64,000 nucleotides of DNA, from positions 144,501-208,500 of the forward strand of contig NC_015555.1 of the NCBI RefSeq assembly GCF_000189775.2, given 5' to 3'. A model generated the notes under the pieces. That model was given only the letters and a program-made list of their open reading frames with translations, was not told where the DNA came from and made no database searches. The position numbers and the translations under genes were made by a program. This document shows positions 47,969 to 57,806 of the stretch, one piece after another. This stretch comes from Thermoanaerobacterium xylanolyticum LX-11 (GTDB taxonomy: Bacteria; Bacillota; Thermoanaerobacteria; Thermoanaerobacterales; Thermoanaerobacteraceae). The first letter of the stretch is position 1, and each line of letters opens with the position of its first letter.

Positions 47969-48000
47969 ATTTACCATATATTTTTAGGTATATTATGTTG

Positions 48001-48470
48001 TAATGGGGACAATATAATATCGTAAGGTTCGCAATGGTTGAGCCAAGATCATCTAAGGACGAAAGTTCTTAGATGATCGGCCAAAGATTGATATTGGATC
48101 AAGTGGTCCAATATCAGTCGGCGGGCAGACTGTGATATGTCTTGTAAGGCTTTATATTAGTCATATAGATTAATATAAGGTTAAAAGAGATGTATTATAG
48201 TCGAGCTAAGATCATTATAAGTTCCGCAGGCCAGATGTATAGCTTAGTGTTGTACTTAGGCTGGAGGTCTAATATGGTCGAGAGATTATATTAGGTTTCT
48301 AAGGTATTTATAATGGTCGAGCAAAGGTCTATATGGGTTTTGAGATGCTTGTATTAAGTCATAAGATTTGATTTAATACAGGTGTGCAAAGATTTATATA
48401 GGCTGAAGCGAAGATCATTGCGGGCCTTTTTATATATAATTATGGAGACGGTTCTTGCCGTCTCTTTTTT
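48001..48470 (+). ncRNA. Large structured non-coding RNA of unknown class
   Basis: This 470-bp stretch has no plausible ORF. The ends pair: GGTTCGCAATG (48026-48036) with CATTGCGGGCC (48416-48426), 11 bp. Between them lie a 14-bp stem with GAAA loop (48047-48078), a 15-bp stem with AAGT loop (48086-48119), an 11-bp stem (48150-48180), a 9-bp stem (about 48268-48293) and a 13-bp stem (48348-48382). Variants of GTCGAGCNAAGATCAT recur at 48037, 48200, 48316 and 48402. About ten G.U pairs support the plus strand. An intrinsic terminator ends it at 48470. A possible promoter is TTTACC/TATTAT at 47970-47996 (15-bp spacer). I do not recognise it as tmRNA, RNase P, SRP or 6S RNA; OLE, ROOL or another large ornate RNA remains possible. 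Confidence 0.72.
48445..48470 (+). terminator. Terminator of the structured RNA
   Basis: GAGACGG-TTCTTG-CCGTCTC followed by six T. The group IIC intron remnant starts at the very next base. Confidence 0.92.
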
Positions 48471-49023
48471 GTGCGCCCGGCATGGGCGGTAACTTGGCAG
48501 GGAAAGTCCGCTGTGGGCTTGGTAGTGGGAACCACGTGTCCATCGTGAGGTGGAATCTGAAGGAAGCGGTAGGCAAACTCTCGGTCTGATGAACAAAAAC
48601 CAGATAAGAGGCTGAATTAGGGCGGACGAGTTTGCAAGTCAAAACGAAGTCCAACACTACCCGAACCCCATACAGTAAATCTGGCAGATATATGAGATGA
48701 AGGTTATCGTTCTTACCCGGGGAGTTCTCAAGGACAAGTCATTAAAGTGAACTCTGAAATGACAACCCATGCAGTGATGTATGGCTGAACCTTGAGAAGT
48801 CAGCAGAGGTCATAGTACTTGTCTAGTCATGAATAGATAAGGAAGGACCGAACATTAGGAGGTTTTGGCGAGGGATATGCAGTTCTTAAGACAACTCAAC
48901 AAAGAGGCTATCCGCTCAATCAAGAAATGGAATTTAAAGAGAGAGGGGGATATATCATCGGCGTCAAAAGATAGAAGAAACAATGTACAAATATACACCA
49001 GTAATATGCTTGAAATGATACTA
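48471..49023 (+). mobile_element. Truncated group IIC intron (5' part only)
   Basis: Starts GTGCGCCCGGCATGGGCGG and stays nearly identical to the full-length intron at 55899 until the twentieth-odd codon block of the reverse transcriptase, where homology stops after GAAATGATACTA. Domains II-VI and almost all of the reverse transcriptase are missing, so it is dead. Relative to the full copy it lacks about 17 nt after GGGAACCAC. It sits directly behind a terminator T-run, the normal IIC target. Confidence 0.9.
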
Positions 49024-55039: not shown

Positions 55040-55066
55040 TAGATAATAAATTAATCAATAGACTAT

Positions 55067-55150
55067 GTCCGCTGGGGGTGCTTTTAGCTGAGATGGCAGA
55101 TGCCAAACCCCTAGAACCTGATTAGGTTAATACCTACGAAGGGAATGCGG
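55067..55150 (+). ncRNA. TPP riboswitch (THI element)
   Basis: GGGGGTGC, GCTGAGA, ACCCCTAGAACCTGAT and TAATACCTACGAAGGGAA follow in order, the invariant core of the THI element. It binds thiamine pyrophosphate and controls the thiT gene downstream. Confidence 0.96.
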
Positions 55151-55184
55151 CAAAAGACCGCATCAGTGTGCGGTTTTTTTGTTT
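55146..55184 (+). terminator. Riboswitch expression platform (terminator/antiterminator)
   Basis: ACCGCA and TGCGGT form the terminator stem followed by TTTTTTT. TGCGG just upstream (about 55147-55151) can pair with the same CCGCA and so acts as antiterminator. TPP binding is expected to hold that TGCGG within the aptamer end and favour termination. Confidence 0.8.
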
Positions 55185-55898: not shown

Positions 55899-57806
55899 GT
55901 GCGCCCGGCATGGGCGATAACTTGGCGGTGAAAGTCCGCTGTGGGCTTGGTAGTGGGAACCACTAGCTGAACCGCAAGGGTGTCCATCGTGAGGTGGAAT
56001 CTGAAGGAAGCGGTAGGCAAAATCTCGGTCTGAGGAATACGAACCAGATAAGAGGCTGAATTGGGGCGGACGAGTTTGCTGAACAAAACGAAGTCCAACA
56101 CTACCCGAACCCCATACAGTAAATCTGGCAGATAGACGAGATGAAGGTTATCGTTCTTACCCGGGGAGGTCTCAAGGATAAGTCATTAAAGTGAACTCTG
56201 AAATGACAACCCATGCAGTGATGTATGGCTGAACCTTGAGAAGTCAGCAGAGGTCATAGTACTTATCTAGTCATGAATAGATAAGGAAGGACCGAACATT
56301 AGGAGGTTTTGGAAATCTTATGAACTCGAAAGATATGCAGAGACTGCAGACAACTCAACAAAGAGGCTATCCGCTCAATCAAGAAATGGAATTTCAAGAG
56401 AGAGCGGAAGTGCATAGTATATCATCGGCGTCAAAAGATAGAAGAAACAATGTACAAAGATACACCAGTAATATGCTTGAAATGATACTAGACCGAGAAA
56501 ACATGAAAGAAGCATACAAACGAGTAGTTGCAAATAAAGGAAGCCATGGAGTCGATGGGATGGAAGTAGATGAACTTCTACCGTATCTCAAAGAAAACTG
56601 GCCGACCATAAAGCAACAATTACTGGAAGGAAAATATAAACCACAACCAGTGTTGAGAGTAGAAATACCAAAACCAGATGGAGGAACAAGACTACTAGGG
56701 ATACCTACAGTACTAGACAGACTAATACAACAAGCAATAGCCCAAATACTAAGTGGAATATACGACCATACATTCTCTGATAACAGTTATGGTTTCAGAC
56801 CTAGACGCAGTGCAAAAGACGCAGTAATAGCCGCAGAAGTATATATAAACGAAGGATGCACATGGGTAGTAGATATAGACTTAGAAAAGTTCTTTGACAG
56901 AGTAAACCACGACATACTAATGTCCAAATTAGAAAAGCGGATAGGAGACAAACGAGTACTGAAGCTAATACGAAGATACTTAGAATCAGGAGTAATGATA
57001 AATGGAATCAAAGTAGCAACAGAAGAAGGGACACCACAAGGAGGGCCATTAAGTCCGCTACTAGCAAACATAATGTTAGATGAACTAGACAAAGAACTAG
57101 AAAGAAGAGGACATAAATTCTGTCGATATGCAGATGATTGCAACATATACGTAAAAAGCAGGTCAGCAGGAAACAGAGTAATGAAAAGCATAAAGAAATT
57201 CATAGAAACCAAATTAAAACTAAAAGTCAATGAAACAAAAAGTGCTGTAGATAGACCATGGAAAAGAAAATTCTTAGGATTTTCGTTTTATACAAAAGAA
57301 AACGAAGTAAGAATAAGGATTCATGAAAAATCCATCAAAAGGTTTAAGGAAAAAGTAAGAGAAATAACCAATCGAAACAAGGGAATAAGCATGGAATACA
57401 GAATACGTAGATTGAATCAGATAACGACAGGATGGGTTAACTATTTTGGATTAGCAGATGCGAAAGGAATAATGAAAGCTCTTGACGAATGGATAAGGCG
57501 TAGACTAAGAGCATGTATATGGAAGCAATGGAAGAAGACAAAAACAAAGTATGACAATCTGATAAAATTAGGAGTAGAAAAACAAAAAGCCTGGGCATAC
57601 GCCAATACGAGGAAAGGCTACTGGAGAATATCCAATAGCCAAATACTCAATATGACTCTTACAAATAAATACTTCGAAGACATAGGTTATAGAAGTTTAT
57701 CAAAAAGGTATCTAATCGTACATTAAATCTTAATGAACCGCCGTATACCGAACGGTACGTACGGTGGTGTGAGAGGACGGCGGTTAGTCACCGCCTCCTA
57801 CTCGAT
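55899..57806 (+). mobile_element. Full-length group IIC intron, about 1.9 kb
   Basis: 5' end GTGCGCCCGG behind the thiT terminator T-run; 3' end CTACTCGAT. Domain V is at about 57737-57768 (ACCGCCGTA with TACGGTGGT), with CGC at its base in the place of the catalytic triad. Domain VI follows (GGCGG-TTAGTCA-CCGCC region, 57773-57798). The encoded protein lacks an endonuclease domain, as in class C. Insertion just after an intrinsic terminator is the class C target preference. It looks intact and possibly mobile. Confidence 0.93.
56320..57726 (+). CDS. ltrA: Group IIC intron reverse transcriptase/maturase
   Basis: 468 aa. The RT fingers-palm carry IPKPDGGTRLLGIPTVLDRL, SYGFRPRRSAKDAV, VVDIDLEKFFDRVNHDIL, GTPQGGPLSPLLANI and the active site YADD (270-273). 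The maturase X/DNA-binding region follows (WKRKFLGFSF, YWRISNSQILN). It ends without an HNH endonuclease. It resembles the GsI-IIC RT of Geobacillus closely. The N-terminal 50 residues are extra. AGGAGG precedes ATG 56320. Confidence 0.96.
   Translation: MNSKDMQRLQTTQQRGYPLNQEMEFQERAEVHSISSASKDRRNNVQRYTSNMLEMILDRENMKEAYKRVVANKGSHGVDGMEVDELLPYLKENWPTIKQQLLEGKYKPQPVLRVEIPKPDGGTRLLGIPTVLDRLIQQAIAQILSGIYDHTFSDNSYGFRPRRSAKDAVIAAEVYINEGCTWVVDIDLEKFFDRVNHDILMSKLEKRIGDKRVLKLIRRYLESGVMINGIKVATEEGTPQGGPLSPLLANIMLDELDKELERRGHKFCRYADDCNIYVKSRSAGNRVMKSIKKFIETKLKLKVNETKSAVDRPWKRKFLGFSFYTKENEVRIRIHEKSIKRFKEKVREITNRNKGISMEYRIRRLNQITTGWVNYFGLADAKGIMKALDEWIRRRLRACIWKQWKKTKTKYDNLIKLGVEKQKAWAYANTRKGYWRISNSQILNMTLTNKYFEDIGYRSLSKRYLIVH

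Follow-up and report, generated by a model that had tools for sequence, protein, structure and literature searches.

The window analysed here, a 64,000-nt stretch of the Thermoanaerobacterium xylanolyticum LX-11 genome (NC_015555.1, positions 144,501 to 208,500, renumbered from 1), carries at 48024-48428 on the plus strand a structured RNA of ~405 nt whose six near-equal arms meet in a six-way junction, and which is virtually certain to be a real conserved non-coding RNA (ncRNA). The computed properties of this RNA are its structure, its plus-strand orientation, its homologues, an internal duplication, a common register of its arms, its promoter type and an association with sporulation. It is widespread among anaerobic spore formers and seems to be expressed solely within the developing spore, and it is absent from Rfam although it occurs in about 40% of the sampled genomes of its phylum.

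Fold, homologues and internal duplication

The segment 48001-48470 has a minimum free energy of -206.7 kcal/mol, compared with a mean of -111.6 kcal/mol for 100 dinucleotide shuffles, none of which folded as stably (0/100; z = -15.2). An earlier, sequence-only reading of this DNA had proposed such a stable RNA, free of open reading frames (ORFs); the only ORFs that overlap the locus lie on the minus strand and are 75-80 amino acids long. The 11-bp helix that it drew around the element (48026-48036 with 48416-48426) is real and forms part of a 16-bp closing helix P1, and its five or more inner hairpins, one capped by GAAA, correspond to five further arms (P2 to P6) on the same junction, with the GAAA loop on P2. 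The intrinsic terminator that it noticed lies at 48444-48465 (a 9-bp stem, then a T tract), and similarity to the closest relatives stops at 48470. On the consensus structure, the window copy contains 33 G.U pairs rather than the roughly ten first counted, but the choice of strand was right: over 54 homologues, G.U accounts for 24.5% of pair cells and A.C for 0.7%, and therefore the plus strand is the functional, selected RNA. The parts of the RNA gene are listed below in window coordinates.

47988-47994, +: putative -35 element GTATATT, forespore sigma-F/G type, from a de novo promoter model of 62 homologous upstream regions
48007-48018, +: putative -10 element GGACAATATAAT, same model; separated from GTATA by 14 nt and from P1 by 5 nt
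48024-48428, +: RNA body, P1 to P1′, from fold, homologues and covariation
48024-48039, +: P1 5′ strand, pairs with 48413-48428; 99.6% of cells paired, double changes at 11/15 pairs
48040-48046, +: junction linker 1, GAGCCAA, near-invariant; GC:GC pairing with linker 6, 88% paired
48047-48078, +: arm P2, 14 bp, GAAA loop at 48061-48064; 99.0% paired, double changes at 12/15 pairs
48079-48085, +: junction linker 2, GGCCAAA; GCC:GGC pairing with linker 3, 81.5% paired
48086-48119, +: arm P3, 15 bp; 98.3% paired, double changes at 12/15 pairs
48120-48127, +: junction linker 3, GGCGGGCA, near-invariant
48128-48202, +: arm P4, outer helix 48128-48143/48187-48202 and inner helix P4b 48148-48162/48168-48182; 95.6% and 98.2% paired, double changes at 14/16 and 14/14
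48203-48209, +: junction linker 4, GAGCUAA; GCU:AGC pairing with linker 5; near-invariant in 54 homologues
48210-48318, +: arm P5, outer helix 48210-48222/48306-48318, variable hairpin P5a 48230-48261 and hairpin P5b 48262-48301 with a GAGA loop; 97.7% and 97.3% paired, P5b loop GNRA in 47/54 homologues
48319-48325, +: junction linker 5, GAGCAAA, near-invariant
48326-48404, +: arm P6, outer helix 48326-48341/48389-48404 and inner hairpin P6b; 97.4% paired, P6b loop GNRA in 46/54 homologues
48405-48412, +: junction linker 6, GAAGCGAA, near-invariant
48413-48428, +: P1 3′ strand; a U tract follows directly in many homologues
48035-48143, +: 5′ repeat unit covering P2-P3, which internally duplicates 48198-48428 (P5-P6); match to the 3′-half model at 57.3 bits, E = 1.4e-15
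48444-48470, +: intrinsic terminator, 9-bp stem and T tract, from a scan and the end of similarity to the closest relatives

The arms share a common design. P4, P5 and P6 each carry a second helix, and the six junction linkers pair with each other (1-6, 2-3 and 4-5) in helices of 2-3 bp. With base pairs numbered outward from the junction, each of the six arms has a U.G pair at bp 3 (in 46-94% of the sequences) and a G.U pair at bp 12 (74-94%), with an additional U.G at bp 14 in P1 to P3. Arm lengths are fixed and near-equal, the outer helices being gapped in only 0-2 of the 54 homologues; the loops of P2 and P3 vary across homologues, and the purine-rich internal loops of P4, P5 and P6 are near-invariant, as are the linkers. 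Moreover, a covariance model of the 3′ half (R1, comprising P5, P6 and the P1 3′ strand) matches the 5′ half of its own RNA, and does likewise in other genomes; the RNA therefore contains an internal duplication. With its repeated arms, the RNA clearly exemplifies construction by internal duplication, and such a compact, many-armed molecule is well suited to cryo-electron microscopy.

The RNA is not the orphan that it was first taken for. Of 61 related genomes, 25 gave a BLAST match, a few of the matches being short, and profile searches detected almost complete homologues in remote families too. Within a sample of the phylum, R1 matched 166/399 genomes and 117/267 genera, including Thermoanaerobacterium, Thermoanaerobacter, Moorella, Carboxydocella, Pelotomaculum, Desulfofundulus, Pelosinus, Propionispora and Lucifera, and the RNA is also present in the class of Propionispora. 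When 20 loci, mostly with weaker R1 matches, were examined by profile, the RNA was confirmed in all 20 and was nearly whole in 19. Two pattern matches (L090 and L136, the latter in Porphyromonas) showed no homology by profile and were set aside as chance.

Covariation supports the fold throughout. In a first set of 24 homologues, compensatory double changes occur at 92 of 130 predicted pairs; in an alignment of 54 homologues less than 82% identical, they occur at 119 of 143 pairs. Standard pairs fill 97.1% of cells in this larger alignment, compared with 77.3 +/- 0.3% in shuffled and at most 43% in slid controls, and the covariation score is 0.675, compared with 0.261 +/- 0.004 (shuffled) and at most 0.143 (slid). 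The structure came from the same 54 sequences, which makes the slid control somewhat favourable, although the margin is very large nonetheless. Overall, homology, covariation, an unconserved context and absence from Rfam 15 support the sequence-only reading's suggestion of a large ornate RNA of an unlisted class that is not a riboswitch. Two of the outcomes that this reading had named as refuting it, an Rfam match and a lack of covariation among homologues, did not occur.

Promoter, genomic context and the link to sporulation

A promoter model, seeded with a weak -10 and a flat -35 element and trained on 62 homologous upstream regions with six-fold cross-validation, converged on G[TA]ATA-N14-GGNNAYAMTA, located a few bases upstream of P1. 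Its area under the curve is 0.997 for telling these regions apart from random genomic windows and 0.993 for telling them apart from shuffled upstream regions; its sensitivity is 98% at 1% false positives. The spacing is 14 in about 50 of the 62 regions, and a sigma-A pattern occurs in one of them. A sigma-70 promoter was also considered, and a scan found no convincing site at the RNA's 5′ end. The published csfB sigma-F elements, GTATA and GGGGAGGCTA (PMC4383634), fit this motif; sigma-F and sigma-G promoters are alike, with sigma-F ones keeping a G upstream of the -10 element (PMC3789822). In the same window, spoIIR (~31705) and a SASP-like gene (~35919) have promoter-like sites that resemble the RNA's. 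Judged by its motif, the promoter appears to be of the sigma-F/sigma-G type found with forespore ncRNAs of the CsfG/Bvs196 kind, and the RNA is very probably transcribed in the forespore.

The genes around the RNA differ from locus to locus. Over 38 diverse loci, the upstream genes fall into 33 clusters and the downstream genes into 31; the upstream gene diverges in 25 and the downstream gene converges in 23. No conserved co-directional downstream gene, as expected for a riboswitch or leader, was found among them, and recurrent neighbours, considered as a clue to function, reflected lineage-specific synteny. As the flanking genes are not conserved, the RNA is therefore a free-standing transcript that acts in trans, not a leader. 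In the window, too, no gene follows in the transcript, as the sequence-only reading stated; an ORF-less piece of a group II intron starts at 48471.

That intron piece (48471-~49060; matches to Rfam D1D4-3 and D1D4-1) begins with GTGCG right after the RNA's terminator T tract, and looks as if it was inserted behind the terminator. Group IIC introns insert behind intrinsic terminators. The same intron domains (RF02001, RF01998) recur in a second copy 7 kb further on, at 55983-56292, after a thiamine pyrophosphate (TPP) riboswitch at 55064-55162.

Many genomes carry one copy of the RNA, Propionispora three and Lucifera four. From a Sporomusa-like genome (G429), seven full copies and additional degenerate pieces were retrieved. 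The full copies in this genome and in G468 (L170-L178) are 97-100% identical despite their differing surroundings, which suggests recent spread or concerted evolution, and the near-identical dispersed copies retain the forespore-type promoter. Such copy numbers suggest that large amounts of the RNA are needed. Tandem full-length copies occur in Pelotomaculum sp. (L080:219-620 and 2206-2607) and in G466 (L179:3900-4838). Further, one G429 region (L169:5424-15540) holds about seven degenerate 3′ fragments of ~80-260 nt, one every 1-3 kb, among short genes and a haemagglutinin-like ORF (genes read by eye); these fragments may mark recombining cassettes.

The distribution of the RNA follows that of the sporulation gene spoIVA. 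In the first sample, searched with R1, spoIVA was found in 40/40 genomes with the RNA and in 27/40 without it; after one genome had been reassigned with a more varied model (R2), the counts became 41/41 and 26/39 (Fisher P = 2.6e-5, with shared ancestry ignored). In the class of Propionispora, which we take from its name to be the Negativicutes and where sporulation is patchy, they were 24/27 and 10/50 (P = 4.4e-9, again ignoring shared ancestry). A class search around another genome (G047) covered only 10 genomes. The sequence-only reading was sound as far as it went, but it missed the forespore-type promoter, the six-fold arm design with its internal duplication, and this link to sporulation.

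Proposed role and its alternatives

From these properties, we infer transcription in the forespore, protein binding and a stoichiometric role. RNA polymerase with sigma-F, possibly also with sigma-G, would make a free-standing, trans-acting RNA in the forespore; the RNA would fold into its six-way junction, with six near-equal arms and two halves related by duplication, and the arms would offer several equivalent binding sites to a forespore protein, which the RNA would either gather into a spore ribonucleoprotein or titrate, and for which it would be needed in bulk. Several equivalent sites and a need for bulk are proposed because the same wobble signature recurs at the same distance along each arm and because some genomes have seven or more near-identical copies. 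We give this reading, a forespore RNA that serves as a multivalent scaffold or sponge and forms a spore ribonucleoprotein, about an even chance; if its other steps hold, the multivalent scaffold or sponge is itself an even call. More tentatively, and somewhat short of evens, the RNA could represent a new class of spore RNA machine: six-armed, grown by internal duplication, nucleating a stoichiometric forespore ribonucleoprotein through equivalent sites, and widespread in anaerobic spore formers, with seven or more copies in some Sporomusa-like genomes.

Several observations weigh against this proposal. No partner protein is conserved beside the RNA loci, and the recurring wobbles could contribute to tertiary packing rather than bind a protein. 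The positive control within the genome is partial: spoIIR and one SASP-like gene resemble the RNA promoter, and other spore genes do so less; moreover, sigma-F and sigma-G promoters are indistinguishable here by sequence. About two thirds of the first-sample genomes without the RNA have spoIVA, and therefore the RNA is not required for sporulation everywhere. Three RNA-bearing genomes of the second sample lack a spoIVA match, possibly due to incomplete assemblies, and the Fisher tests leave genome relatedness in.

An RNA-only particle, in which copies self-assemble through their arms into a storage or structural spore particle without protein, would account for the size, rigidity and many arms of the RNA, its fixed arm lengths, its two conserved GNRA loops and its many copies in some genomes; GOLLD, ROOL and OLE are reported to be homo-oligomeric (PMC12286853). 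However, the element matches none of those families, and no conserved complementary loops were seen, without a systematic search (the P5b and P6b loops are GNRA and those of P2 and P3 vary), which makes such a particle unlikely. The near-invariant internal loops and linkers, and the size and complexity of the RNA, would also suit a ribozyme or small-molecule receptor acting in trans in the forespore, but six near-equal arms in the same register are unusual for a single active site and no enzyme gene is associated with the RNA in 38 loci; we consider this quite unlikely. About as improbable is a forespore antisense regulator that base-pairs with transcripts, for example those encoding small spore proteins, in the manner of Bvs196 (Bacillus velezensis): the residues are mostly paired, two hairpin loops are GNRA and the others variable, leaving no conserved exposed seed, and the conserved unpaired parts are short purine-rich internal loops and linkers.

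In Thermoanaerobacterium, the RNA follows a same-strand metallo-hydrolase gene, as a riboswitch-like leader or 3′ untranslated region structure acting in cis might; its own promoter and terminator, its freely varying neighbours and the opposite orientation of the downstream gene in 23/38 loci make this very improbable. It is more improbable still that the hairpins act at the DNA level in a mobile or repetitive element. The dispersed near-identical copies in one genome, seven or more, and the degenerate 3′ fragments in a gene cluster fit such an element, but the excess of G.U over A.C cells indicates selection on the plus-strand RNA, many genomes are single-copy, and phage, plasmid and viral contigs gave no match.

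The promoter and phyletic pattern of this RNA point to a cell type and a time, which allows genetic experiments in sporulating anaerobes to be planned straight away. To our knowledge, only a few large bacterial RNAs of unknown function are on record, and for most of them nothing indicates when they act; we likewise know of few forespore RNAs, and of none with a clear core role.

Comparison with known RNAs

At the gathering threshold, Rfam 15 has nothing at 48024-48428; in a relaxed search, the best match by E-value was a chance microRNA model (17 bits, E = 3.7), and 25 homologous loci showed no family at the RNA. The covariance model of OLE (RF01071) did not match the element. Models for GOLLD, ROOL and the raiA motif RNA (ModT) matched neither the element nor its homologous loci, assuming that these families are in the library (GOLLD and ROOL among its 4227 families). 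We found no description of such an RNA in the open literature, including that on Thermoanaerobacter, Moorella and Pelotomaculum, or in the main text of the 50-genomes paper (PMC11109978). On sequence evidence, the RNA class and its repeated six-arm design appear to match no known one among those tested, Bvs196 and CsfG being set apart by description only.

Like this RNA, OLE is large and ornate and belongs to anaerobic or extremophilic Bacillota, but it is a separate gene, at 1256339 in the same genome. It occurs in 39/40 genomes with the RNA but also in 23/40 without it, and a functional link was not retained since the co-occurrence may only reflect shared ancestry. GOLLD and ROOL are likewise large multi-arm ncRNAs of unknown function; they differ in that the present RNA has no match in Rfam or in phage, plasmid and viral collections, and hence no GOLLD/ROOL-like association with phages or mobile elements. 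CsrB-type protein-sequestering RNAs present many equivalent protein sites on one RNA. They are an analogy of working only, as CsrB uses loop motifs and this RNA would use paired arms with wobble signatures. The smtA motif / Soda Lake RNA (PMC11109978) is also longer than 350 nt, supported by covariation and of unknown function but, unlike this RNA, is reported only from Thioalkalivibrio.

Two forespore RNAs of endospore formers offer a further comparison. CsfG, as cited in PMC9147052, is a small RNA restricted to the forespore via sigma-F and sigma-G, with no mRNA target identified in that account; it was compared by description only. Bvs196, an S547-type RNA of Bacillus, is a forespore RNA of 294 nt and -82 kcal/mol between hinT and ecsA (PMC9147052); a regular expression, a weak test of that context, found no HIT-motif proteins near the present loci. 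Bvs196 is smaller and less stable than this RNA (~405 nt, -207 kcal/mol), and shares with it the status of an independent RNA, a promoter of sigma-F/sigma-G type, an intrinsic terminator and a stable, conserved fold.
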